Positions 4,457 through 20,243 of a DNA stretch of 20,672 nucleotides are shown in pieces (position 1 is the first letter of the stretch; each line of letters opens with the position of its first letter). The notes below the pieces were generated by a model, which was not told the DNA's origin, made no database searches, and worked only from the letters and a program-made list of their open reading frames with translations. Location of the stretch: positions 1 through 20,672 of the IMG/VR virus record IMGVR_UViG_3300037847_002674; one strand, written 5' to 3'. Made by a program: the position numbers and the translations under genes. Source of the DNA: a virus.

Positions 4457-4486
4457 TATATAGAGCTATTCTTCAATATCAGTCAA
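4457..4486 (-). promoter_or_regulatory. Candidate sigma70-type promoter for the late virion genes
   Basis: On the minus strand there is TTGACT (4486-4481), an 18-base spacer and TATATA (4462-4457). This matches 5/6 of the -35 consensus and 4/6 of the -10 consensus. Transcription would start near 4450, leaving a leader of about 30 bases before the ATG at 4419. The -35 box overlaps the last codons and stop of the upstream glycosyltransferase. This 59-bp space is the largest or nearly the largest gap in an otherwise overlapping gene array, which adds weight. AT-rich DNA yields such matches by chance, so it is only a candidate. Confidence 0.45.
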
Positions 4487-5237
4487 CTTTATAGAATTCG
4501 TCTTTGACTTTGCCTGAATACTTATATTCACCGATATGGCTTATTTCTTCATCACATAAAGCATGAATTTTACCACCTATTGATGTCCATAATTTACAAA
4601 AATAGAAATCTTCACCCATGTACGTTTTATTTTTTGGACTCCAATAAGTGTCAAAAAAGTTATAATAGTTAGGTCTATCTATAAGCTCTCCATTGACTAA
4701 TGTCTTTTGACTTATAATTAATTCCTTATAATGCTCTTTCAATTTATCAAATGCTGATCTTTTAATCATCATCATACCTGTAGGTCCTTTAGACACTTCT
4801 ATAAAACCATCTTTAGGTCTTATGTCATTTATATCTGGTATTTCTATAGGAAACAAATGTCCCATACTGTGAATACTATCATCAGGTCTTGTTTCAAAAT
4901 CTTTTCTAAATTTAGCATCTGTCTTTTGTTTCATTGGATAAGGTATTAAAGATACTTCGTGAGGTGATTTGAATAATCTATAAACCGATCTTGTACTAAA
5001 CTCAATATCAGAATCTATAAATAACATCTGATCTGCATCAGAATTCATAAACGCAGAGGCACACAAATTTCTACCCTGTGTAACTAATGAAGATTTCATT
5101 AGTTGAAATGTAATTTTTGTTTTATTTAAAATACATTCTTTTTGTAAATCTAAACAAGCTTTCATATAATGTATAGAAACATCAGAATGCACAGGAGTGC
5201 AGACCATCATATGATTTTTATTTATTTCGTTGGACAT
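4479..5237 (-). CDS. GT-A-fold glycosyltransferase-like protein, 252 aa
   Basis: This is probably a metal-dependent nucleotide-sugar transferase. After an N-terminal strand (MMVCTPVHSD) comes QGRNLCASAFM and then QMLFIDSDIEF, whose Asp75-Ser-Asp77 is the expected DxD motif for Mn/Mg and sugar nucleotide. GPTGMMMIKRSAFDKL (about 151-166) and GEDFYFCKLW (Glu209-Asp210) look like the acceptor and catalytic part of GT-A enzymes, and His234 in ISHIGEY is a candidate third metal ligand. The start at 5237 is fixed by a strong AGAGGAG ribosome site. It overlaps the GT4-type gene by 20 bases, so the two are probably made together. It lacks a membrane segment and should be cytoplasmic. The acceptor (virion protein, host glycan or DNA) is unknown. 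Confidence 0.75.
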   Translation of the reverse strand: MSNEINKNHMMVCTPVHSDVSIHYMKACLDLQKECILNKTKITFQLMKSSLVTQGRNLCASAFMNSDADQMLFIDSDIEFSTRSVYRLFKSPHEVSLIPYPMKQKTDAKFRKDFETRPDDSIHSMGHLFPIEIPDINDIRPKDGFIEVSKGPTGMMMIKRSAFDKLKEHYKELIISQKTLVNGELIDRPNYYNFFDTYWSPKNKTYMGEDFYFCKLWTSIGGKIHALCDEEISHIGEYKYSGKVKDEFYKVD

Positions 5238-6162
5238 GAATTACTCCTCTTAAAAAACTTTCCCAATTTTTAGCAGTGTTTCGCCAATCATAAAATCTTT
5301 TATAATATTCTTGTTGAAATTTAAATACATTAGTTAAATCGTTTTGTAATATCTTTTTTGCTTCGACACAACATTCAGCTACTTGTTGGGCTAATTTAGC
5401 TTTATCTCTTGTGAAAGGAATATAGATAGGAAACTCTGCACAGGTTTCAAACAATGCACCGAGATCCGTGGTTATTAATAATTGACCAGCTGCTAATGAT
5501 TCCATAGCTGATATACAAAATGTTTCTTCCCATATGCTAGGAAAACAATTTACGTCATATTCTTTTAATTTTCCCATTAAGGTTTTATGATCACAGTAAC
5601 CCATGTAATTAACATTAGGTAAATCTTTTGCTTTTTGATAAAGGTCTAAATATTCTTTATCGTTATGATTATGAAACTGTTTTCCATAAATAATCGTGCT
5701 TGAATAAACATCTAAAGTAATATCTGGATCTCTATCTTTTAATGAGTCCATCGCTGCTAAAGCGACTTCTAAGCCTCTCCAAGGTGTTGAGATGTAACAC
5801 ATCTTTAATTTTTTCTTAGGTGTAAAATCTGTTTTTAATTGTAATTCTTCATAGTCAATTCCATTTTTTATAACTGTACATTTATCTTCAGGAATTCCAA
5901 AAAACATACGATATTTTTCATAGCTCCAATGACTATTAAAAACATACCAATCATATTTAGAATGATTTTCTTTATTTTGAAACCAAGGGGCTAGGTTAGG
6001 TTGGTCATAAGAATTTTTTAACCAGAGTATATTTGCTCTTATGGGATCTAAAGGTTCTTTTTCTGGTATAGATGTAGTTATCTGTACTGAATCAAGTATA
6101 CCTTGATTCGCATACTTTTTTAAATAAGCTAATTGTAATTCGGTTCCACCTGCTGGTTGCAT
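5218..6162 (-). CDS. GT4-type (GT-B fold) glycosyltransferase, 314 aa
   Basis: This looks like a retaining glycosyltransferase transferring a sugar from a nucleotide donor. The glycine loop PAGGTEL sits at residues 3-9. Other family features are YDWYVFNSHWSYEKYRMFFG (about 70-89), the hinge-side VIKNGIDYEEL (97-107), YISTPWRGLEVALAAM (123-138), YMGYCDHKTL (186-195) and the donor-site E-x7-E (Glu213 to Glu221) followed by GQLLITTDLGALFE. At 314 residues it is shorter than typical GT4 enzymes and begins almost at the glycine loop, so the first strand of the fold is missing or minimal. TAATG coupling to the upstream gene supports this start. It is cytoplasmic and soluble. It is encoded as a pair with the GT-A-like enzyme. 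Confidence 0.85.
   Translation of the reverse strand: MQPAGGTELQLAYLKKYANQGILDSVQITTSIPEKEPLDPIRANILWLKNSYDQPNLAPWFQNKENHSKYDWYVFNSHWSYEKYRMFFGIPEDKCTVIKNGIDYEELQLKTDFTPKKKLKMCYISTPWRGLEVALAAMDSLKDRDPDITLDVYSSTIIYGKQFHNHNDKEYLDLYQKAKDLPNVNYMGYCDHKTLMGKLKEYDVNCFPSIWEETFCISAMESLAAGQLLITTDLGALFETCAEFPIYIPFTRDKAKLAQQVAECCVEAKKILQNDLTNVFKFQQEYYKRFYDWRNTAKNWESFLRGVIHVQRNK
5244..5250 (-). promoter_or_regulatory. Ribosome binding site AGAGGAG inside the upstream gene
   Basis: AGAGGAG lies 6-8 bases before the ATG at 5237 and within the 3' end of the GT4-type gene. It decides the start of the GT-A-like gene despite the 20-base overlap. Confidence 0.7.
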
Positions 6163-8931: not shown

Positions 8932-9260
8932 GGCAGTATTATACACCATTCTAGCTTAGACGCCAATTCCTCTATATTTACCACACGTTTAGAGTTTTCT
9001 TTTAAATATTGATGAAGTTCTTCAACATCAACAATAATAAACTGATCCTTTAAATCATATACTATTTTATCTGCTTTGGTTTTAAATGAACCACCTTTGG
9101 CTTGATTCTTTAATGGACGTAAATCAAATTTAAATTTTTGGTTATGTAAAATTCCTTCTATATCCCAAAGTTCTCTTTTTTTCTGATTAGGGGTAGCTTC
9201 TTTTGTAATAATTAATAACTTTTTAAAATCATTTAATGACATATGTAGAATAAGGCTCAT
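8922..9260 (-). CDS. Unknown protein closing the oxygenase cassette, 112 aa
   Basis: I do not recognise a family. Visible features are an N-terminal helix (LNDFKKLLIITKEATPNQKK), ELWDIEGILHNQKFKFDLRP, a Lys/Gly segment KGGSFKTKADKIVYDL and KDQFIIVDVEELHQYLKE with alternating hydrophobics, then a final helix and WCIILP. The mix of basic loop and beta-alpha units could be a small nucleotide- or nucleic-acid-binding fold, but no motif proves it. An alternative ATG at 9242 would remove six residues and shorten the overlap with the upstream oxygenase gene from 32 to 14 bases. Its AT-rich composition matches the oxygenase genes, so it probably belongs to their cassette. Confidence 0.6.
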   Translation of the reverse strand: MSLILHMSLNDFKKLLIITKEATPNQKKRELWDIEGILHNQKFKFDLRPLKNQAKGGSFKTKADKIVYDLKDQFIIVDVEELHQYLKENSKRVVNIEELASKLEWCIILPCH

Positions 9261-9867
9261 TGCCTACTTTTCCCGTGAGAAAATAATTAGCTCCAAATAC
9301 AATTCTATTTTCGTCATGTTCATTAGGAGTTGTACCATGCCTAAGATCACCAGGAAAAATAACTACATCTCCTTGTTGAGGTTGAATAGTCCATTGACTA
9401 GAATTGTGTTCATTATATTTTTTTATATCATATTCAAAGTAAAAAGATTCTTCAATTGCAGACCGATCTACGTAAAATGTTAAAGCTCCACTTTTTATTC
9501 TAGCATAAAATACAACACTAAATAAACAATTAGGATGTCGATGTTCATGGTGGCTACGTCCTTTTGTACAAAGAGATATCCAATCGTTAACTCTAATTAA
9601 TTTATTAGTTATACCTAAAGCATTTTTTGCATAAGTATCTGACATTTTATCTATAAATTTTTTTACAGGTTCTAAAAATTTATCTTTAAACACATGAGTA
9701 TTATTACTTACTAAAGCACCTTTGGTTCCTTGTTTAGTAGTTTGTTTGCAATATTGTTTTTTAATTAATTTGTTTATAAATTCATCTGATAAACTAAAAT
9801 TTGTTTTATAGATCTTTATAGGAATTGCTTTTAAATTTAAAGAATATGTGTTTTTTATTTCCACCAT
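9229..9867 (-). CDS. 2OG-Fe(II) oxygenase-like protein of the TIGR02466 / 2OG-FeII_Oxy_5 type, 212 aa
   Basis: The double-stranded beta-helix core is visible from VNDWISLCTKGRSHHEHRHP to the C-terminus. The metal site follows the histidine-rich variant known for this family: His107-Glu-His109-Arg-His111 then PNCLFSVVFYA, where classical enzymes have HxD. The distal histidine is His177 in FPGDLRHGTTPNE, and Arg188 (ENRIVFGANYF) is the likely 2OG carboxylate binder. SGALTFYVDR forms the usual strand between them. It should hydroxylate an unknown substrate using O2 and 2-oxoglutarate. It is the last oxygenase of the cassette; its ATG overlaps the preceding oxygenase gene by 13 bases. The exact iron ligands cannot be settled by eye. 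Confidence 0.8.
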   Translation of the reverse strand: MVEIKNTYSLNLKAIPIKIYKTNFSLSDEFINKLIKKQYCKQTTKQGTKGALVSNNTHVFKDKFLEPVKKFIDKMSDTYAKNALGITNKLIRVNDWISLCTKGRSHHEHRHPNCLFSVVFYARIKSGALTFYVDRSAIEESFYFEYDIKKYNEHNSSQWTIQPQQGDVVIFPGDLRHGTTPNEHDENRIVFGANYFLTGKVGNEPYSTYVIK

Positions 9868-10391
9868 GGGCCTGTCTCAAAAATAGTACATGATATTCTT
9901 TCACCTTTAGTAACAGGAGTTACTTTATGTAAAAAATAAGATGGAAATATTATCATACTACCTGGTTGATCAAACTCTTTCACATGATATGGTTTACCAT
10001 CAAATAGTTTAAATACTCCTCCTTCATAAGGTTTTTCAGATAAATTAATTAATGTAGTCAATTTTAAAGTAAAATTTTGAGAATAAGGTTCTGCATCTAC
10101 GTGCCATTTGTATTGACCGCGATTAGAAGCTCTGTATTTATTTTGAATAACATCGTCATAAATATTATCATAAATATCAAAACCAAATACTTTTCTATTT
10201 ATCCATCTAATTGATTGTTTAATGTCTTTTATTTTTTGAATTTTACTATAAGCTGTTTGAGTAGCTACTGACGATTTTACAGTAGGTGCTTGTTTATAAA
10301 ATGGCTGAGGAGTTTTATCAAACTCTTTATTAATCTTTTTAATTTGAGTTTTAGTTAAATAATCGTTCACATAATAGTAAGTAAATTTCAT
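9855..10391 (-). CDS. 2OG-Fe(II) oxygenase, PKHD/PiuC-like, 178 aa
   Basis: A classical set of residues is present: His97-Val-Asp99 (YKWHVDAEPY), distal His155 (SYFLHKVTPV) and Arg165 (TKGERISCTIF) for 2-oxoglutarate. KLTTLINLSE and PYEGGVFKLF are the strands of the jelly-roll core, and PGSMIIFPS precedes the distal histidine. This is the prolyl/lysyl-hydroxylase-like (P4Hc, PKHD) pattern, so a hydroxylated protein or small molecule is expected. The ATG at 10391 shares a base with the previous stop (TAATG), which I prefer to a TTG start 15 bases upstream. Its C-terminal 35 residues resemble those of the first oxygenase in the cassette, suggesting paralogy. Confidence 0.87.
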   Translation of the reverse strand: MKFTYYYVNDYLTKTQIKKINKEFDKTPQPFYKQAPTVKSSVATQTAYSKIQKIKDIKQSIRWINRKVFGFDIYDNIYDDVIQNKYRASNRGQYKWHVDAEPYSQNFTLKLTTLINLSEKPYEGGVFKLFDGKPYHVKEFDQPGSMIIFPSYFLHKVTPVTKGERISCTIFETGPWWK

Positions 10392-10915
10392 TAAAAATAG
10401 TTCCAATTTATGTTTATTCTTGCATTTTGGTTTGTAGTAGATGTGCTTGAATGAGGTTTAGAAGCATCAAATAATAATAATCTATTTTCCACTGAATCTA
10501 TTTTAGTATCATCATCTAAAATAGTAGCTCCATCACAGGTATTAATAGAAAATAAAGCTGCTTTGTGTGGAAAGTTATAATCAATATGTGCTTTATGTTT
10601 TAATAACTTTGATGTAATTGGATATAAATTACATTTTATTCTTAATAGTGCTCTAGGATTTATTTTATCTATTAAAGGAAAAAGGATATCAAAATGTTTT
10701 GATTTTATAAAATGTGATCCTTCATAAAACATGTGGGTAAAATAACAAGATTTATCTTTTCTTTCAAATTCATTTATGTTTGGTTCGTAATGCCACGGAA
10801 AATCTGCATGCAGAATAGCATGTTTTAAATCTAAAAATTGGTGTCTTGGTAAGAAGTCATCTATTACTGTATACTTATCTTTAGCTAAAGCTATTTGTTT
10901 CTTTTTTTTATACAT
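10391..10915 (-). CDS. 2OG-Fe(II) oxygenase-like protein, 174 aa
   Basis: The core motif is His110-Ile-Asp112 (KHKAHIDYNFPHKAALFSIN), followed by the short strand GATILDDDTKI, SVENRLLLFDASKPHSS with distal His155, and Arg166 in ARININWNYF at the very end. The N-terminal half (YTVIDDFLPRHQFLDLKHAI, PWHYEP) is the substrate-shaping lid usual for such enzymes, and resembles phage proteins with a PWxY motif. The catalytic triad and the 2OG-binding arginine are all in place, so activity is likely; the substrate is unknown. It starts 4 bases after the previous stop and is coupled to the next oxygenase by TAATG. Confidence 0.82.
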   Translation of the reverse strand: MYKKKKQIALAKDKYTVIDDFLPRHQFLDLKHAILHADFPWHYEPNINEFERKDKSCYFTHMFYEGSHFIKSKHFDILFPLIDKINPRALLRIKCNLYPITSKLLKHKAHIDYNFPHKAALFSINTCDGATILDDDTKIDSVENRLLLFDASKPHSSTSTTNQNARININWNYF

Positions 10916-10919
10916 GTAT

Positions 10920-11486
10920 TCACACCCCTAAACGTTTCCACCAACCAGTTAAGATATATTTATTTTGTTTTTTAGGAGGATAGCCTTTGTGAGTATGAGT
11001 CCAGGTTGCAGGCCAAATTAGAGTTAATCCTTTCTTAGGTTTTATCTTTAACTTTTGATCCCAGAAAGCTGTCTCTCCCCCACTATTTACCGTGTTTAAA
11101 TAAGTCATAAAAACCAAATGTCTTTTATAAGTGGTTCTACTTCCACTATTTTCATTATGCCATATGTGATAACCCTCATTAGGTTTATATCTTTGTATCT
11201 TTGGCCATAATTCTAAATCCCAAGACTCTTGGCCTATGTCACAATATTTATATTTTTTTTTATATTTATTTAAACATTTTACTAGTTCAGAAATATATTC
11301 ATCCCATAAAGTTGTTTCTTGCTGTCTAAATATTACCTCTGTAGTTTCTTTTAGTTTAGGATCATACACATCATCGTTGCCCTGAAAAAAAGTGCCTCTA
11401 TATTTTGTATTATTATTTTCAAAATAATTTATTAACTCGTCACACAAGTTTTTATCTATGTAGCTTTTACCAATAAAGTCAGTCAT
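10920..11486 (-). CDS. 2OG-Fe(II) oxygenase-like protein with HxE-type metal motif, 188 aa
   Basis: The core reads IQRYKPNEGYHIWHNENSGS. His110-Asn-Glu112 takes the place of HxD, so the carboxylate ligand is probably glutamate. RHLVFMTYLNTVNSGGETAF and KIKPKKGLTLIWPATWTHTH (His164, His166) complete the jelly roll, and Lys176 in NKYILTGWWK is a candidate 2OG binder in place of arginine. From memory, this YHxWHxE...THTHxG...KYILTGW pattern defines a recognisable group in cyanophages and marine bacteria with no proven substrate. It overlaps the preceding oxygenase gene by 8 bases. Because glutamate versions of the triad can be active or altered, chemistry is less certain than for its neighbours. 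Confidence 0.82.
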   Translation of the reverse strand: MTDFIGKSYIDKNLCDELINYFENNNTKYRGTFFQGNDDVYDPKLKETTEVIFRQQETTLWDEYISELVKCLNKYKKKYKYCDIGQESWDLELWPKIQRYKPNEGYHIWHNENSGSRTTYKRHLVFMTYLNTVNSGGETAFWDQKLKIKPKKGLTLIWPATWTHTHKGYPPKKQNKYILTGWWKRLGV

Positions 11487-12081
11487 TTATTCTAAAATCA
11501 AAGTTAACAACAGTTCTATAAGTAGATTCTACAGGTGAATTACCTGCGTGATATCTATCTCCATCAAAATAAAAAGCAGATCCTTTTTTAGGAGTGTTCT
11601 TTTTAGCTATAGTAAGTTTAGTTTTGTCATAAAAATTTGGATAATCTTTATTATGTTTTTCTTTAAACATAATAGTATCTCCGTCTGAATCATGTAAATA
11701 GTATATTAATGACTTATATTTATCTAAGTCTGCAAGGTCTACATGTGGATAATTATATTTTTTTAAAGTATGTCCTTTACAATAAAATGTACGTCTAATT
11801 CTAACTCTAAGTATTTCTGTAATTTTTACTTTTTCTTTTTCTGCAAAAGCGTCAAGAATAATTTTAAATCTCTCAAAGAAATCTGAGTTAGCTCCTTTGG
11901 GTTGAAAATACAAAGTATGAATCCACCCGTATGTTTCAGTGATATTTTTATGTTTTATAAATTTTTCGTTTCTGTCATAGATTACATTTCCATAAAAAAA
12001 CCATGGAAACTCATCACTGTTGACTATGTTTTCTAAATAATCTTGTTGTTGTACAGATAATAAATTTTTAATTAATTTCAT
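11479..12081 (-). CDS. 2OG-Fe(II) oxygenase-like protein, 200 aa
   Basis: His113-Val-Asp115 (YPHVDLADLDKYKSLIYYL), distal His178 (SAFYFDGDRYHAGNSP) and Arg189 (STYRTVVNFDF) form a full iron and 2-oxoglutarate site. DGDTIMFKEKH is the intervening strand. The N-terminal domain contains SDEFPWFFYGNVIYD and YGWIHTLYF, of the same general type as the PWHYEP element of the 174-aa oxygenase, so these two may form one subfamily. It overlaps both neighbours (14 bases upstream, 8 downstream). Soluble and cytoplasmic; substrate unknown. From memory, similar proteins occur in T4-like cyanophages next to structural genes. Confidence 0.83.
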   Translation of the reverse strand: MKLIKNLLSVQQQDYLENIVNSDEFPWFFYGNVIYDRNEKFIKHKNITETYGWIHTLYFQPKGANSDFFERFKIILDAFAEKEKVKITEILRVRIRRTFYCKGHTLKKYNYPHVDLADLDKYKSLIYYLHDSDGDTIMFKEKHNKDYPNFYDKTKLTIAKKNTPKKGSAFYFDGDRYHAGNSPVESTYRTVVNFDFRIND

Positions 12082-12691
12082 GAAATTTCCTTTTTTTCTC
12101 AGTAGCAGAATTAGGTAATCCTAAATGCTTTCTTGAGTCATAAAGAGTATCCGCACTTGATAGAGTGTAATGTAAAAATAATTGACCACATATTTGACCT
12201 TTAAATTGTTCTCTCCAGTGTGGTAATTCTGTACCTTGATATAAAACTGCATCCCCAGGTTTTAAAGTAATATCTGTTTTAATTCCCTTTTTATCTAACA
12301 AAAATATAGGCCATTTATCACCGCCTAAATTAATTGTTAAAGAAACAGCGCATGCTTTCCTATCTCTGTGTTTACGCAAATCATCTCCTTTTTTGTAAAG
12401 TCTTGCATAACTATAGCTTTCTGTAAGTTTTAATTTAGTTTCTTTTTCTACTTTCTTTTTTAAAAAAGCTATAAGATTATCCATAGCTGCATCTCCATAA
12501 ATAGCAAATGTATTTGGACACATAGAATCACCTTTTCCTCCCCAATCTAAATTATAAGGAGATATTAAGTTCATATCCATCATGGTGTTAAATACTTTCT
12601 TTTTTAATTGTAAATATGAATATAGAAAATCAGCAAGTTGCTTATCTATTATTTGTTTTTGAATACAATAACCTCTATCTTTAAAAGACAT
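12068..12691 (-). CDS. 2OG-Fe(II) oxygenase-like protein, 207 aa
   Basis: The core is YARLYKKGDDLRKHRDRKAC with His108-Arg-Asp110, then AVSLTINLGGDKWPIFLLDK, ITLKPGDAVLYQGTELPHWR with distal His158, and GQICGQLFLHYT. The usual arginine about ten residues after the distal histidine is replaced by the GQICGQ stretch, so 2OG binding must use another residue (Arg160 or Lys164 are nearby). This layout (KHxDRxxC...W-PI...PGDxVLYxGxELxHWRE) is familiar from memory as a distinct phage/marine group. It overlaps the sulfotransferase gene by 11 bases and the next oxygenase by 14. The C-terminal 30 residues are Lys/Arg-rich and probably unstructured. Confidence 0.8.
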   Translation of the reverse strand: MSFKDRGYCIQKQIIDKQLADFLYSYLQLKKKVFNTMMDMNLISPYNLDWGGKGDSMCPNTFAIYGDAAMDNLIAFLKKKVEKETKLKLTESYSYARLYKKGDDLRKHRDRKACAVSLTINLGGDKWPIFLLDKKGIKTDITLKPGDAVLYQGTELPHWREQFKGQICGQLFLHYTLSSADTLYDSRKHLGLPNSATEKKRKFHEIN

Positions 12692-13442
12692 CTAAATCTT
12701 TGCACCTTTTAATAATGTGTTGAGGTAATAGGTTTTTACTTTTTAATTTTCTTGGTTTACCTAAAGTTAATTTATGTAAAGGAATTTCTGGGCCACCTAC
12801 ATCTCTAAATATTTCATCGTTATATTTGACACCATTATTTTCAAATTGTCCATTCACTGTGTAATTAACTTTGCTGTATTTTAAATTTAAATATTTAAAC
12901 ACTTTTTTAATTTCTTTTTCAGGGTTTTTTATTAAGTTTTTATAATGTATTACAATATAATCTAATTTATTTTCTTTAAGGTATTTACATGCTGCAACAA
13001 CTTTTCCCAATGATCCTGAAATACTCAACTTTTCAGCTGCAAAGTGTTCTATGTTTCTTCTTTCTTTAGGAATAAGAGATACAAATGAATTTAAACATTC
13101 ATGTAAAGGTCTGTATAAAATTATATGTTTTTGTTTATTAGGAGCTATTGTGTCTAATAAAATTTGATTGCCTTGTGTGCCCCAAGGACCTCTAATTAAA
13201 ATATTGTTTTGTTTCCAATGTTCAAAATAATTATCAAATATTTTTTTGTACATATTATCAAAAGATTGTTCGTCAGGAAAATTGTGAAAGTTTTCACCAG
13301 CTTTAATTCTATATAATTGGAGCAAGACATCAGGTAAAACAGAATTACCTGTCACTGCTATGTCTTTATGTTTATTAACTAAGTATCCAAAAAGAGTATT
13401 ACCCGCTCTTGGCATACCATTAAAAAAAATATAATTTTTCAT
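12681..13442 (-). CDS. PAPS-dependent sulfotransferase, 253 aa
   Basis: This enzyme should transfer sulfate from PAPS to a hydroxyl or amine of an unknown acceptor. The N-terminal strand and 5'-phosphosulfate loop are FFNGMPRAGNTLFGYL (residues 6-21). The 3'-phosphate site is IILYRPLHECLNSFVSL with Arg111 and Ser119. IVIHYKNLIKNPEKEIKKVF (from about 173) is the usual following helix, and a basic C-terminus closes the protein. I chose the ATG at 13442 because it overlaps the preceding oxygenase stop as ATGA with a GGAAGG ribosome site upstream; an open GTG 24 bases earlier is less likely. No signal peptide or membrane anchor is seen, so it acts in the cytoplasm. It is the only non-oxygenase enzyme recognised in the cassette. 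Confidence 0.87.
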   Translation of the reverse strand: MKNYIFFNGMPRAGNTLFGYLVNKHKDIAVTGNSVLPDVLLQLYRIKAGENFHNFPDEQSFDNMYKKIFDNYFEHWKQNNILIRGPWGTQGNQILLDTIAPNKQKHIILYRPLHECLNSFVSLIPKERRNIEHFAAEKLSISGSLGKVVAACKYLKENKLDYIVIHYKNLIKNPEKEIKKVFKYLNLKYSKVNYTVNGQFENNGVKYNDEIFRDVGGPEIPLHKLTLGKPRKLKSKNLLPQHIIKRCKDLDVF

Positions 13443-14068
13443 TTGAAAGGCCTTCCTAAGCACCACATAACTAAAGAATATCTTGTGCCTTTAGTAACAG
13501 GTGATACAGCGTGAAACTGAAAAGACGGAAAAACAACTAAAGACCCTTGTCTTTTTAGTTCTTTGGCTGTTAATTGAGTTATTTTAGTAGGGTCTTTTTT
13601 ATGATCTAAAAATTTTAATTCTCCTCCTTTATATTCAGAGGAGTCATTTAAAGAAACTGTTACAGATAATTTTCTAATTTTACCATGGATATTTGGACTA
13701 GAGGGATCATCATATGGTTGAACACCACAATCTTGATGAAAACCATAAAATTGATTTTTTTTATAAATAGTGAATTGTATGTTTTCTGCCTTATCTATTT
13801 CAAAATTCCAACCTGCATTTTTATTAGCAGTGTTTACAAAAGGAATAACAGTATCAAAAATCCATTGATCTTTTAACCAAACAATGTTTGAATTCCTAAG
13901 TTTTTTTAAATCTTTTGATTGTTTTTTGGTAAGTTTTTTTCGAGTATCAATTGCAAAAGTACCGCCCCTTCTTTCGTCTTTTTTAGCTAATGCATGTTGT
14001 ATAACGTCATTACAAAACGATTTAGGCAATGCTTTTTCAAAATACCAATATTTATACTGCAAATTCAT
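13439..14068 (-). CDS. 2OG-Fe(II) oxygenase, PKHD/PiuC-like, 209 aa
   Basis: The first gene of the cassette has the full hydroxylase site: His111-Gln-Asp113 (YGFHQDCGVQPYD), distal His186 (FPSFQFHAVSPVTKG) and Arg196 (RYSLVMW). LSVTVSLNDSSEYKGGELKF is the paired strand region of the jelly roll and QGSLVVFPS the strand before the distal histidine. This matches the prolyl-4-hydroxylase-like, PKHD-type branch (PiuC-like). The N-terminal KYWYFEKALPKSFCNDVIQ helix is typical of the same proteins. It follows the 136-aa gene after a 53-base space that may hold a promoter, and its stop overlaps the sulfotransferase start. Confidence 0.9.
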   Translation of the reverse strand: MNLQYKYWYFEKALPKSFCNDVIQHALAKKDERRGGTFAIDTRKKLTKKQSKDLKKLRNSNIVWLKDQWIFDTVIPFVNTANKNAGWNFEIDKAENIQFTIYKKNQFYGFHQDCGVQPYDDPSSPNIHGKIRKLSVTVSLNDSSEYKGGELKFLDHKKDPTKITQLTAKELKRQGSLVVFPSFQFHAVSPVTKGTRYSLVMWCLGRPFK

Positions 14069-15422: not shown

Positions 15423-16493
15423 TTACGCAAACTGTGTTAGAGAAGCTAAAACTGTAAATGCAGCGTCTCCTGTTTTAATAACAGTGTAAGAGTAAACATC
15501 AAGTGAGTTAGCATTTCCTGCAGATGGTGCAGAACCACCTTGCCATTCAGGAGTTACTCCTGATCCATCAACTTGTACAGCTGAATTGTAATATGCTGAA
15601 CTACCTTGTTTTACTATGTGAGCTACTGTTATAGATTCTCCAGCGTCCATAATACTATTTAAAGAATTTGATCCATCACCTCTAATATTTAATGTCCAGT
15701 TTCCTGAAGCATCAGTAGTGAAGTTCCAAACTGCTTGTGTAATTACATCGTAGTTTACTGTTCCTGTAGCAGCCGTTGCTTCAGTCGTAACTTTTTCAGC
15801 AGTTTGTTGAATTTTTGCAGCACCTAAAGATACTCTTCCGACACCTTTTCCAGCAAAACTTAGATCAATGTTAGAATCACCACCTGTTGCAGTAACGCTT
15901 GGAGCGTTTCCTGTTGCAGCGTTAGTTACATCAATTTGGTTAACTGCCGATGCTGTAGTTTGGAATGTAATTTGTTCATTACCATTTTCGTCCTGTATTC
16001 CATGAGCATCATCAATTTTAATATTTTGTGAGTTAGTGTCTAGATCTCCACCAAGTTGCGGTGAAGTATCTTCTACGATATCTTTTAAGAAAAATACATC
16101 AACTGCATTTGTACCATCAACATAAATTATATGAGTTTTTCCCTCAACAAGCGTTACACCTGATCCACTGACAGTTTTAAAAGTTAATGAATTTCCTGAT
16201 CTTGTAGTACCATCTACAACAATGTATGTTTTTTCTATTCCATCTGGAACAGTTACAACTCTAGTTCCTGCAAGAGTTCCTGTTAATTTAAGAACTGCAT
16301 TTCTTGCATTTGATATTGTTGCGTTAGTCATCGCAAGAGCAACGTCTGATGACGCTACATCAATAGCTTCATAACCTGCAATTGCTTGTTGAACTAAGTT
16401 TAAATTTGTATTTGTTTTATCACCCCATGTACCAGCGTTTTCGCCAGTTACCATAAGTTCTAGTTTTAAATCTGTAGAATAACTTGATGCCAT
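15423..16493 (-). CDS. Tail-fibre-type structural protein, 356 aa
   Basis: The N-terminus (SSYSTDLKLELMVTGENAGT, then WGDKTNTNLN) is the start I recall for a widespread marine phage fibre-like protein with a GTWG-xxTNxNL motif. The following 100 residues are beta-rich (LKLTGTLAGTRVVTVPDG, KTYIVVDGTTRSGNSLTF). A middle segment, SPQLGGDLDTNSQNIKI, then a string of short strands including ITFQTTASAVNQIDVTNAAT and WNFTTDASGNWTLNIRGDGS, reads as a trimeric fibre shaft with a C-terminal head. It probably connects the tail to the adhesin. AAAGGA stands nine bases upstream of the ATG. Assignment rests on recalled family resemblance and gene order. Confidence 0.7.
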   Translation of the reverse strand: MASSYSTDLKLELMVTGENAGTWGDKTNTNLNLVQQAIAGYEAIDVASSDVALAMTNATISNARNAVLKLTGTLAGTRVVTVPDGIEKTYIVVDGTTRSGNSLTFKTVSGSGVTLVEGKTHIIYVDGTNAVDVFFLKDIVEDTSPQLGGDLDTNSQNIKIDDAHGIQDENGNEQITFQTTASAVNQIDVTNAATGNAPSVTATGGDSNIDLSFAGKGVGRVSLGAAKIQQTAEKVTTEATAATGTVNYDVITQAVWNFTTDASGNWTLNIRGDGSNSLNSIMDAGESITVAHIVKQGSSAYYNSAVQVDGSGVTPEWQGGSAPSAGNANSLDVYSYTVIKTGDAAFTVLASLTQFA

Positions 16494-16532: not shown

Positions 16533-18065
16533 TTATGCTGCCTTGTCAACAACCGTCCAAGTTGGAGCAGTTCCTGGATCTACAACAGCCCATGCGTTTA
16601 GTCCTATTATACCTGTTGAAAACGTACTTGTCACTCCTGTAGGTGATACTAATACACTTAATCCTGCTGTAGGAACACCCATTGTTGATTGTAATCTAAT
16701 ACCTGTAGGGCTAGCTATTGTATTAGGTGTAGCGTCTTCGTTTCCAAGAGAAACACTTATTTGCTGACCTGTTAAGGTTAAATCTGCATTTGCAGTTATA
16801 GATATCGTACCCGTTGTAGAATTTGCTTGATTTCCTGTAATGTCTGTATCTGGCGCAGGATCAACTGTTCCTTCATTTGCAGTCATTGACATATCAACAG
16901 TAGCTTGTCCCCAAGACTGAGAACCCCAACCAACACTCGCTCCCCATCCAGGAGTAAATGTGCTTGTTACTTGTACATCGATTGAAATATCAACATCTGT
17001 AATGAAAGTACCACCCCATTCAGTTGTTGATGCACCCCATTCATCTTGACCCCAAGTTTCTCTAACTCCTGAGTCAACTGATAGAGATTGTCCTGTTAAT
17101 GAAACTGTTTCCCATATACCTTCTGCACCCCAAACTTCGACACCCCAATCATCTCTTCCCCAACCTTGTTCGTTTTGTGCTACTGCAGTTCCAAGACTTG
17201 CAGATAATTGTTGTCCTGTAGGAAAAGCATCAGTTCGATCAGCTAAACTTCCCTCTGAAATATTTAATGCACTTAAAGGGTTTTCACTTAAGAAAATTTC
17301 AGTTGCAGTTGTAATACTTACACTTGCTACAGTAGAATTAATTTGTTCACCTGTTTCAGCGATTTGTTGTCCAATTCTAGCTACAGGAGTAAAAGTTCCT
17401 CCCCATTTTATAAAAGGATCACCCCAAGTATTTTGTCCCCAAGTGTTTTGCTCACCAAAACCAAGAGATAAATCTAAACCAGTTAAAACAACTAAATTTC
17501 CACTTTCACCCCAATTTTCAGTTCCCCAAGTATCTGAACCCCAACCTTGGTTTGGAAAAGCTTCTACACTCCCTTGACTAGGTGTTAATTCAAAGCTTGA
17601 AGTAAGTACACTGACATTTGGCTGGTCTGACCAAGAGCCTGTATTCCAAGATAATGCTCCCCAAGTATTTTGAGTAATATCAAAAATACCACCCATGCCA
17701 ATACCGTGTACATAACATAAATAATAAAAATCTGTTTCTGATGAAGGAGTTACTTCAATGTATCTCGTGGTTGCAGCATTGAAGGTTGTAGTATTTGTGT
17801 AATTTGTCTGATTACTAGAACCATCCAAATAATAAGTTACACCTGATGAAATTATCCCTGATGTGTTTTGTGTAGTTGAAAAAATTAAAGGGTGGTTATC
17901 ATTAGAAGCATCGCTTTGATCAAATCGTAAAGTTGCTCCATTAACCCAATTTACAGTTCCAGGACCTGTAGAATTTCTTGCACCATCTAGATAAAAGACG
18001 TTGCCTGTACCACCACCATAAAGGTTACCCGACGCTACGGTAACTGTGTAAGTTAATTCTGCCAT
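16533..18065 (-). CDS. Tail/adhesion protein with cupredoxin-like domain and Trp-Gly clusters, 510 aa
   Basis: Residues 1-130 form a cupredoxin-like beta-sandwich. GATLRFDQSDASNDNHPLIF gives His58, and FYYLCYVHGIGMGGIFDI gives Cys117, His120 and Met124, the four ligands of a type 1 copper site in the right order. From residue 134 onward, clusters of W-G pairs (GWGSDTWGTENWG; NTWGQNTWGDPFIKWGG; GWGRDDWGVEVWG; ETWGQDEWGASTTEWGG; GWGASVGWGSQSWG) alternate with threonine/serine-rich strands such as VSLTGQSLSV and LTLTGQQISVSL. The end, WAVVDPGTAPTWTVV, is a repeated Trp motif known to me from marine phage structural proteins. A role in tail surface or host contact is inferred. Copper binding is predicted only from residues. 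Confidence 0.72.
   Translation of the reverse strand: MAELTYTVTVASGNLYGGGTGNVFYLDGARNSTGPGTVNWVNGATLRFDQSDASNDNHPLIFSTTQNTSGIISSGVTYYLDGSSNQTNYTNTTTFNAATTRYIEVTPSSETDFYYLCYVHGIGMGGIFDITQNTWGALSWNTGSWSDQPNVSVLTSSFELTPSQGSVEAFPNQGWGSDTWGTENWGESGNLVVLTGLDLSLGFGEQNTWGQNTWGDPFIKWGGTFTPVARIGQQIAETGEQINSTVASVSITTATEIFLSENPLSALNISEGSLADRTDAFPTGQQLSASLGTAVAQNEQGWGRDDWGVEVWGAEGIWETVSLTGQSLSVDSGVRETWGQDEWGASTTEWGGTFITDVDISIDVQVTSTFTPGWGASVGWGSQSWGQATVDMSMTANEGTVDPAPDTDITGNQANSTTGTISITANADLTLTGQQISVSLGNEDATPNTIASPTGIRLQSTMGVPTAGLSVLVSPTGVTSTFSTGIIGLNAWAVVDPGTAPTWTVVDKAA
16905..17560 (-). repeat. Tandem Trp-Gly modules in the 510-aa protein
   Basis: Five clusters of two or three W-G pairs spaced 4-6 residues apart occur at about residues 174-186, 209-222, 302-312, 338-351 and 374-386. 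They are separated by LTG(x)(x)LSxS-type strands. The repeats are diverged at DNA level, though TGGGG and CCCCA-like words recur. They look like repeated small beta modules rather than a recent duplication. Confidence 0.7.
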
Positions 18066-18082: not shown

Positions 18083-18514
18083 TTATGCGATTCTTAATAT
18101 AGCGGCGCTCGATGTAAAGTTTGGAAATTGAATTGTAAAAGTTCCAGAAGTTGCAGTTTTATCAGCACCAAAATCTAAAACACAAACTGCTTTGTTAGCT
18201 TCAGTTGAGTTATAGATTAAAGCACCTCTCGCAGTAAGTGTTACTCCTGTGAAAGATAAATCTGCAAAGTCTACGATCGCGACTCCGCCTGTTGCTAATG
18301 AAGTTTGTTGTGATGCTAAAGTTCCACCTTTTGCAGCATACTGTCCAGAAGCCGAAACTTCATTACCTGTAGTGTAAGAAGTAGTTGCTGAACTTAATGT
18401 TGCTTGTGATGTGTATAATGCTAGTTTAAATACATCGCCACCATTTTCTAAATCATGAACTCCTTCTAGAAGTTCTTTTTTAAATGAATTGGCTACTGCT
18501 TGTGTAATTGCCAT
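18083..18514 (-). CDS. Small structural protein of marine-phage type, 143 aa
   Basis: The N-terminus AITQAVANSFKKELLEGVHD, followed by FKLALYTSQATLSSATTSY, matches a pattern I recall from many phages (AxTxxxxxSFKxELLxGxHDF...FKIALYTSxA). These are annotated as putative virion proteins without known activity. The remaining sequence is beta-rich (GGVAIVDFADLSFTGVTL, ARGALIYNSTEANKAVCVLD, SGTFTIQFPNF). AAGGAG at 18523-18528 is a good ribosome site. It lies between head-tail adaptor genes and the first tail-surface gene, so a tail or neck role is likely. Confidence 0.7.
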   Translation of the reverse strand: MAITQAVANSFKKELLEGVHDLENGGDVFKLALYTSQATLSSATTSYTTGNEVSASGQYAAKGGTLASQQTSLATGGVAIVDFADLSFTGVTLTARGALIYNSTEANKAVCVLDFGADKTATSGTFTIQFPNFTSSAAILRIA

Positions 18515-18538: not shown

Positions 18539-19228
18539 TTAGTTATTAGGCGAAGGTGAAGGTATTTTTACCCTTGGCACCCCGTCCGTATACTCATCTC
18601 TACGTCTTCTGCCCATTTGCTCCAACGCAAAACTTTGTATAGATACATTATACTTGTCTGAATAGATTTTGTACATATCCATAGGACCTTTTAAAAACTC
18701 ATAAGCTTGAACCATTACTGCGTTAAATAATAGGTCAGGAGCATTTTTTGACACATAAGTTTCTGTATTTGTAGATGATAATGCATCTGGTGAGTATATA
18801 TAACTTAATTGAACCTGATATTGAGCATCGGGAGTAGGAGCCATAATTACGGTATCTTCCTTCCAATTAGCATAATATTTTGGAACTCCTGTTGATCCAG
18901 TTGAATTAAATTCAAAAATAAAACTCGTATCTCTTTTGTCTAAATATTCTTTAGTTGTTGGTGTTTGTGTAGAATCAAATACCAACATTGATCTTACTAT
19001 GATGGATGTTCTCGTAGATGAAGTTGCTGGAGAACTTGGTAAAAGTAGGTAAGGTGAACCGATATTTAAGTTAGCAGTAGCATACTGTCTTGTATAATCA
19101 GCATCAACTTCTCTAAAAATACGAAGCTCAGCATCTCTAATCATAGACTGTAAGATTGAATCACTTAAAACAGAACTACCAACTTCTGTGTAATCTCTAA
19201 CTTTTTGTAATAATTCTGCGTACGTCAT
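18539..19228 (-). CDS. Head-tail adaptor-like protein (SU10-adaptor-like), 229 aa
   Basis: The first 40 residues (TYAELLQKVRDYTEVGSSVL, then SDSILQSMIRDAELRIFREV) form the helical head typical of phage connector/adaptor proteins, where a helix ending in an acidic AExRI segment contacts the portal or next ring. Beta strands follow (SPYLLLPSSP, TSIIVRSMLVFD, DTVIMAPTPDAQYQVQLSYI), then helices DLLFNAVMVQAYEFLKGPMD and a long charged helix, ending in a disordered Pro/Ser tail. It is joined to the 114-aa gene by ATGA and is in the expected place just after a gp4-like adaptor. A T7 gp11-like tail-tubular role is an alternative name for the same position. Confidence 0.7.
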   Translation of the reverse strand: MTYAELLQKVRDYTEVGSSVLSDSILQSMIRDAELRIFREVDADYTRQYATANLNIGSPYLLLPSSPATSSTRTSIIVRSMLVFDSTQTPTTKEYLDKRDTSFIFEFNSTGSTGVPKYYANWKEDTVIMAPTPDAQYQVQLSYIYSPDALSSTNTETYVSKNAPDLLFNAVMVQAYEFLKGPMDMYKIYSDKYNVSIQSFALEQMGRRRRDEYTDGVPRVKIPSPSPNN

Positions 19229-19569
19229 GATATACTGATTGTAACACTCCCTACTGAAGAATCTACCTGTCTCTTTTTATTTTCTTCTAATGGATCTTCA
19301 GATGGTTGCATACCATTAGATGTAAATTGACCTGGCCAATATTGTGGGTCTAAATAAACTGTTACAGGCGCAGGTCTTTGCGGTCTAGCATTCCATAATG
19401 CAACAGGATCCGCCGTATGAGGTTTTGGATCTAGTTGAGGATGCTTTGCTTCAAATTCAGACGTATGTACCCATGAACCATTCCATTCTTTAACCATTTC
19501 TCTATATGGAAAAGCTTGTCCTGATCTATCGGATATTGATTGTGAATATTTACCCTTAGCGTAAGCCAT
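19225..19569 (-). CDS. Small conserved phage protein, probably a Cys-free version of a zinc-ribbon-like family, 114 aa
   Basis: The sequence AYAKGKYSQSISDRSGQAFP, then YREMVKEWNGSWVHTSEFEA and KHPQLDPKP, aligns in my memory with a widespread phage protein whose members often read CDRCG...L...EWNG..VCxECYExKHPQLxP. Here the cysteine positions are Ser or Thr (SDRSG; VHTSEFE), and the whole protein has no cysteine. The fold may be kept without the metal. The rest is Pro-rich and probably extended (ALWNARPQRPAPVTVYLDPQ). It sits between two adaptor genes, coupled to both by 1- and 4-base overlaps, so it is likely a connector-associated virion protein. Confidence 0.6.
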   Translation of the reverse strand: MAYAKGKYSQSISDRSGQAFPYREMVKEWNGSWVHTSEFEAKHPQLDPKPHTADPVALWNARPQRPAPVTVYLDPQYWPGQFTSNGMQPSEDPLEENKKRQVDSSVGSVTISIS

Positions 19570-20243
19570 TATGATCCTTGTGGGTAGTAAACATTAGGAG
19601 AAATATAAACAGATGTTCTTTGTCCATCTTCTTCTAATGCTCTTTTTAATTCATCTTCATATAATAATTTTAGTGCTTGTATTCTATCAGGTGCAATTTT
19701 TTGTGATAAATAAAAAGCTAATCCTGATACCATGCATGGAAAAAATCTAAAAGGCATATCAGCTGTATTTGTATATGCACCTACATCTTCAATTCTTGCA
19801 AGATAATAATAGAATATATTAGTCACTGCGCTCGTATCAGGAGCCAGATATAAACTAATAGTTGGTGTTAGTTGTCTATCAACATAATATTGCGAAGGTG
19901 TTCCCGTAGCAGTTTTATTTGGTATTGCTATATATTCTGATCTAGAAACTTTTGTTAAAGTTTGTTGATTACCACCTGAAACAGTTACAACAGCTTCAAG
20001 TACATCATTACAATCACTTGGTGCATTGTAAGTAACTTGACCGTTTACTAATGTTTCTGTTTTTGATTTTACTTTCCAGAGATTAATTCCTCTGTTGCCC
20101 CATTCAGAAAATAAAAGATTTAAACTTCTTCTAGCCGATTTAATATCATTACCAGAATTAGTTCTTACACCGCATCTTTCGTAAGCTTCTTCAATAACCT
20201 CATCAATTGATGGATTAAAACTTGTAGTTCCTGAACTAGCCAT
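19569..20243 (-). CDS. P22 gp4-like head-tail adaptor, 224 aa
   Basis: The N-terminal helices (SIDEVIEEAYERCGVRTNSG, then DIKSARRSLNLLFSEWGNRG and INLWKV) have the pattern of the P22 gp4 tail accessory family, where a helix pair ending in a LxxWxxxGI-type segment follows an AL/RK-rich helix. A beta insertion follows (VTYNAPSDCNDVLEAVVTVS, PTISLYLAPDTSAVTNIFYY), then a helical C-terminal half with GLAFYLSQKIAPDRIQALKL, a segment close in type to the LAxxIAPDY of gp4. The protein should form a dodecameric ring below the portal. Marine podovirus homologues are longer than P22 gp4 (166 aa) by such an insertion; this comparison is from memory. Confidence 0.75.
   Translation of the reverse strand: MASSGTTSFNPSIDEVIEEAYERCGVRTNSGNDIKSARRSLNLLFSEWGNRGINLWKVKSKTETLVNGQVTYNAPSDCNDVLEAVVTVSGGNQQTLTKVSRSEYIAIPNKTATGTPSQYYVDRQLTPTISLYLAPDTSAVTNIFYYYLARIEDVGAYTNTADMPFRFFPCMVSGLAFYLSQKIAPDRIQALKLLYEDELKRALEEDGQRTSVYISPNVYYPQGS

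Follow-up and report, generated by a model that had tools for sequence, protein, structure and literature searches.

The window, by which we mean the whole stretch of 20,672 nucleotides, probably belongs to an HTVC023P-like phage with a SAR11 host, as the nearest relatives of its adaptor, tail, and stabilisation-type proteins are found in the SAR11 phages HTVC027P and HTVC023P (48-69% identity). The locus considered here is encoded on the minus strand and is laid out as follows.

15423-16493, minus strand: 356-aa downstream protein (phrog_31104/5906), syntenic
16533-18065, minus strand: open reading frame of the 510-aa tail-region protein
16533-17675, minus strand: hypervariable WG-repeat region (GWGxxxWG motifs), aa 131-510; median 25% identity to relatives, AlphaFold2 (AF2) pLDDT mostly <50
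17676-18065, minus strand: predicted cupredoxin-like domain, aa 1-130 of the 510-aa protein; AF2 model with pLDDT 89.3, top Foldseek and VIA matches to cupredoxins, HMM family
17694-17696, minus strand: Met124 codon, putative axial ligand position (Gln in three relatives); conserved
17706-17708, minus strand: His120 codon, putative second His ligand position; conserved, aligns with the plastocyanin ligand segment
17715-17717, minus strand: Cys117 codon, putative thiolate ligand position and sole Cys of the protein; conserved, aligns with the plastocyanin Cys
17892-17894, minus strand: His58 codon, putative N-terminal copper ligand position; invariant in the alignments, aligns with the plastocyanin His (hhalign)
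18083-18514, minus strand: 143-aa neighbour (phrog_644), syntenic in nearly all relatives
18539-19228, minus strand: tail/adaptor protein (PF24175 SU10_adaptor, phrog_10775 tail), from Pfam/phrog assignment and synteny
19569-20243, minus strand: adaptor protein (PF24175), whose relative in phage 023Pt_psg01 bears the cupredoxin-like domain instead

The order adaptor, 114-aa protein, tail protein, 143-aa protein, cupredoxin-like protein, and 356-aa protein recurs in almost every one of about 97 related loci. It is on this gene order, with head-tail adaptor and tail genes upstream, and on annotated relatives that the label "tail protein" rests.

Two other groups of minus-strand genes in the window are worth recording. 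In the run of 2OG-Fe(II)-oxygenase-like genes at 9229-14068, Pfam matches were found for four genes and none for three neighbours of similar size; a sulfotransferase (12681-13466) lies among them. Scattered 2OG-Fe oxygenases have been reported in HTVC023P-type phages (PMC9599517); a near-continuous array beside the tail genes may serve the modification of virion or host-surface molecules. At 4479-6162, in the structural region, a glycosyltransferase (PF00534, 5218-6162) adjoins a 252-aa gene without Pfam assignment.

The preliminary description had read His58, Cys117, His120, and Met124 of the 510-aa protein as lying in the order of a type 1 copper site, and the reading frame and codon positions bear this out, with the spacing H-x58-C-x2-H-x3-M. 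It had also placed an N-terminal domain at 17680-18065; the domain is there, but it ends slightly further on, at about aa 130 (17676). The protein has a single Cys (117) and two His (58 and 120), all three at ligand positions, and Met124 is one of five Met residues (1, 124, 392, 394, and 462). Beyond residue 140, the 75 distinct relatives contain just 8 cysteines and 73 histidines among 27,739 residues. The ligand set thus stands out against the Cys- and His-poor background of this tail-region protein. A disulfide role for Cys117 was considered and rejected, the Cys being the only one in the protein; since 253 of 258 intact domains likewise have a single Cys, no disulfide is formed. No signal peptide was found on the 510-aa protein.

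An AF2 model of residues 1-130, built with an alignment of 52 homologous domains, is a β-sandwich with a pLDDT of 89.3 and a pTM of 0.84. In the model, His58 stands just before the strand at 60-63, Cys117 closes the penultimate strand (111-117), and His120 and Met124 are at the turn and the start of the last strand (121-132). In this predicted structure, the four residues are placed as the ligands are in the topology of type 1 copper proteins: model DSSP and conservation together put a His before the middle strand and a Cys-x(n)-His-x(n)-Met/Gln segment between the last two strands. The window domain has an extra hairpin and short helices (aa 64-100) on the stretch from the first His to the Cys. 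The leading Foldseek matches in the PDB were multicopper oxidases, copper nitrite reductases, laccases, and the cupredoxin AcoP (E 5.8e-5 to 1e-3). VIA-align returned copper nitrite reductase (Z 7.6; 3.7 Å over 109 residues), rusticyanin (Z 7.3; 3.3 Å over 106 residues), and small laccases, with Z values of 6.5-7.6 that are moderate (below 8), fall in the range of common arrangements, and alone are not decisive. By AF2, Foldseek, and VIA, the predicted structure is a Greek-key β-sandwich of cupredoxin type, and the cupredoxin-like fold proposed earlier is therefore supported, since cupredoxins lead the listed PDB matches of the model. The best structural matches (rusticyanin, copper nitrite reductase, and the small laccases) share 10-18% identity with the window domain and are periplasmic or secreted electron carriers or enzymes. 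The full-length model of the 510-aa protein (pLDDT 46) is uninformative for the C-terminal part.

Sequence searches reach the known cupredoxins by way of intermediates. Searches of Pfam and NCBIfam with the domain itself gave no match, and neither single-sequence nor profile searches gave a significant direct match to a known cupredoxin, although auracyanin, plastocyanin, and pseudoazurin were among the few best, non-significant profile matches. A core-family HMM from which the bridging sequences had been left out found L191 at E 5.5e-10 and the domain at residues 353-461 of the phage protein L139 at E 1.2e-8; as a control, 160 shuffled sequences all scored below 5 bits. L191, which comes from a marine picocyanobacterium, is 139 aa long, begins with a signal-like segment, and has the loop C-x2-H-x4-M. 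Both intermediates exceed the gathering score of PF00127 (Copper-bind, plastocyanin/azurin), with 28.8 and 26.8 bits against 21.2. The same core-family HMM gave no significant match to plastocyanin (E 7.7-29). Since plastocyanin is not reached directly, superfamily membership rests on the intermediates and the fold. Alignments by hhalign to plastocyanins alone were weak (probability 6% and 61%); in them the His58 segment and the Cys117-His120-Met124 segment, separately, fall opposite the plastocyanin ligands and in register. From the sequence intermediates and the predicted fold, we take the domain to be a true member of the cupredoxin superfamily. It resembles PF00127 cupredoxins in fold, in how His, Cys, His, and Met are ordered and placed in the topology, and in its homology through L139 and L191, and it differs in going unrecognised by Pfam directly, in lacking a signal peptide, and in being an N-terminal module on a phage structural protein.

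Whether the four residues vary freely among homologues was a question raised by the preliminary description, and the alignments answer it in the negative. All four are invariant in 82 of 82 close rows (79-100% identity), in which much else is invariant too. In six divergent phage proteins, 34-42% identical to the window domain in that alignment, the invariant columns are the four ligands and a few fold positions. An HMM gathered a wider set of 280 distinct domains, of which 263 are complete; some of them came from a scan with a pattern upstream of His58. All four ligands are present in 253 of the 263, down to about 25-45% identity, a count to be read with the bias against ligand-less copies of an HMM that includes the ligand columns. 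Once redundant entries are down-weighted (effective number about 41), the nine most conserved columns include those of the ligands. By these alignments, the conservation of the ligands is far beyond chance. The ten remaining domains fall into two kinds: three have His-Cys-His-Gln, with an axial Gln for Met, and seven lack both the Cys and the second His, while neither residue is missing alone in any. A metal site would be expected to lose its ligands jointly while the fold persists; packing residues would not. Judging from the ligand-less copies, the fold can apparently serve without metal in a few members.

Family members that have lost ligands are L225, L152, L241, L242, L281, and L289, and some of the losses are recent. 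In L281, Glu and Asp replace the Cys and the His in a domain that is 79% identical to the intact copy in L498. The axial Gln occurs in L120, L131, and L139, phage proteins of about 1576 aa, as C-x2-H-x2-Q; L120 and L139 carry this domain together with a plastocyanin-like domain within one giant protein. Cupredoxin-like domains also stand in tandem, two or three per protein, in L102, L103, L106, L138, and L168. An axial Gln is known from stellacyanin, umecyanin, and auracyanin (PMC517927).

The length of the ligand loop sets the window domain apart from amicyanin and plastocyanin. The loop is C-x2-H-x2-M in 166 of the 280 distinct domains and C-x2-H-x3-M in 88, the clade of the window having the x3 form. 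Amicyanin, with Cys92, His95, and Met98, has the shortest loop (C-x2-H-x2-M), and in plastocyanin the ligands are at 84, 87, and 92 (PMC517927). Among marine phages, cyanophages included, most relatives share the amicyanin spacing, whereas the x3 loop of the SAR11-phage clade lies between the x2 of amicyanin and the x4 of plastocyanin. Plastocyanin (PetE), moreover, is a small secreted protein with C-x2-H-x4-M, and the window domain, with its x3 loop and no signal peptide, is part of a 510-aa protein.

The C-terminal part, a GWGxxxWG-repeat sequence found likewise in L314 (8618-9583), is hypervariable and nearly Cys-free, matches no known family, and has no confident model. When full-length relatives are compared, median identity is 86% over the domain against 25% over the other 375 residues, where GWGxxxWG motifs abound; these relatives were picked by the domain, which inflates the 86% but not the contrast. 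In HTVC027P, gp68 is the syntenic homologue without the cupredoxin-like domain, and its alignment starts at residue 134. In phage 023Pt_psg01 (L083, 8001-9098), the domain is fused to an SU10-type adaptor and not to the WG-repeat protein. Given the selection bias of relatives first collected with a domain query, prevalence was re-tested with neighbour genes as queries, namely, the neighbouring tail gene or the HTVC027P 143-aa gene, and the ORF after the 143-aa gene was examined. The two queries found the domain on 16 of 72 and 19 of 79 syntenic ORFs, always N-terminal. All 32 distinct copies from these loci keep the ligands, 29 with the x3 loop and 3 with the x2 loop. The x2 copies (L347, L416, and L498) are 43% identical to the window domain and lie in other branches of the tree, and two further subtypes occur at this gene position; therefore, at least two subtypes have become attached to this gene, each at its N-terminal end. 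The domain is thus present on some and absent from other orthologous structural proteins, and it occurs on unrelated ones as well. These distributions indicate that it is a mobile accessory module, fused to the tail gene more than once.

The same family extends to other marine phages and to cells. In cyanophages, the domain is found in the structural protein of S-TIM5/S-TIM61, P-HM2 gp7, the ACG-2014d baseplate wedge, the P-SSM2 tail spike, and gp9-type connectors; it is also found in the tail fibres of Pelagibacter phage Baldr and Methylophilales phage Melnitz. The proteins of S-TIM5/S-TIM61, P-HM2, ACG-2014d, and P-SSM2 have the ligands, and they are annotated as structural or hypothetical, with the copper site unmentioned in the records and papers found. 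Cellular copies occur in marine Prochlorococcus-type genomes, in DUF4214 proteins and a cadherin-like protein, with 7 of 201 genomes of that family carrying the domain. The copies in L171/L180, L188, L189, L190, and L191 are in DUF4214, cadherin-like, and small secreted-type proteins, and that of L171 adjoins an ordinary cellular gene. In the open-access literature, to which the search was confined, we found no account of phage particles that bear cupredoxin domains. A known fold and, as it appears, a known site are thus met in a setting that seems undescribed.

We regard it as probable that the 510-aa protein belongs to the virion of a phage like HTVC023P (SAR11-type) and bears an intact type 1-like copper site on an optional, mobile module. 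Three other explanations deserve to be weighed against this. The site might be one for another metal, zinc or Cu(I) held only as a sequestration or structural clamp, the C-H-H-M set being loaded in the cytoplasm and having no redox role. We consider this improbable, with points on both sides. The missing signal peptide implies cytoplasmic folding, zinc is more available than copper in the cytoplasm, and joint loss of ligands fits any metal site. The exchanges seen at the fourth position, on the other hand, are of Met to Gln and not to Cys, Asp, or His; the intermediates fall in the copper-binding family PF00127; and a Met or Gln in fourth place, with the order and topology of a cupredoxin, is a typical mark of copper sites (PMC517927).

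A copper-protein fold might also have been reused as a structural or receptor-binding domain, the residues being kept by descent or packing with nothing bound in the particle. Ephrins are the precedent: cupredoxins that became surface binding domains and lost the copper ligands (PMC6485061). The window domain shares with the ephrin receptor-binding domain a cupredoxin fold in a surface protein, it is located on structural proteins, and some family members have lost all three loop ligands. Ephrins, though, have their ligands substituted and have disulfides, whereas the window domain keeps the ligands and has a single Cys; the ligands stay while most other positions change, they vanish together, in some cases recently (L281 versus L498), and independently acquired copies all retain them. 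Fold reuse is accordingly a distinctly improbable account, and the concerted losses, with the pattern of presence and absence of the module, would favour bound copper over it. Scarcely credible is an ordinary phage Ig-like decoration domain with an accidental resemblance to copper proteins. The window domain does behave as such optional virion decorations do, being a β-sandwich module that moves between virion proteins, one relative is an Ig-domain protein by BFVD annotation, and phmmer against the PDB ranked NCAM1 first (E 5.5e-4). The phmmer matches to this Ig domain and to antibodies were rejected, as profiles and folds indicate cupredoxins: the NCAM1 match is lost with profiles, no Ig family was found in Pfam for the window domain, fold searches return cupredoxins, and the transitive link leads to PF00127. 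Ig-like decoration domains belong to another superfamily, and the window domain, with one Cys only, keeps a metal-ligand set.

A copper-binding, surface-exposed virion module is, then, the most likely reading of sequence and model. We would expect with good confidence that the isolated domain binds copper; that the virion carries copper in nature we hold to be only a little better than an even bet. Little copper is available in the cytoplasm, and type 1 sites in the apo form can also bind zinc or other soft metals. We propose that the apo-domain would fold in the cytoplasm, that one copper ion would be taken up on lysis or from seawater, and that the metal would lock the ligand loop. The displayed domain would then be a metal-stabilised surface-interaction module of the particle, and the same role is probable for the domain in the secreted adhesin-like proteins of marine cyanobacteria. 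A metal-stabilised role in surface interaction is our first choice because the domain is optional and also occurs on adhesin-like proteins of secreted type. Whether the role is mainly structural or adhesive rather than one in electron transfer seems to us evenly balanced, and redox chemistry or the handling of copper at the surface of the host seems a rather unlikely role.

Cupredoxins are cellular electron carriers and enzyme domains, and it is tempting to imagine abundant ocean phages with blue-copper virions, on whose tails or baseplates redox-active type 1 copper domains would act at the host surface by electron exchange, by delivery of copper to metal-uptake systems, or by protecting the particle from oxidants; we consider this quite improbable. 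As an analogy only, iron on phage tails is said to help at the host surface in the Ferrojan Horse hypothesis. The claim of a copper site is easily tested, since type 1 copper gives a visible colour, and phages both bearing and lacking the domain are in culture. If it is true, copper would be a component of ocean virions and phage infection would be linked to copper chemistry. The module spans unrelated marine phages of SAR11, Prochlorococcus/Synechococcus, and Methylophilales, and many virion proteins now called "hypothetical" would gain a new annotation.
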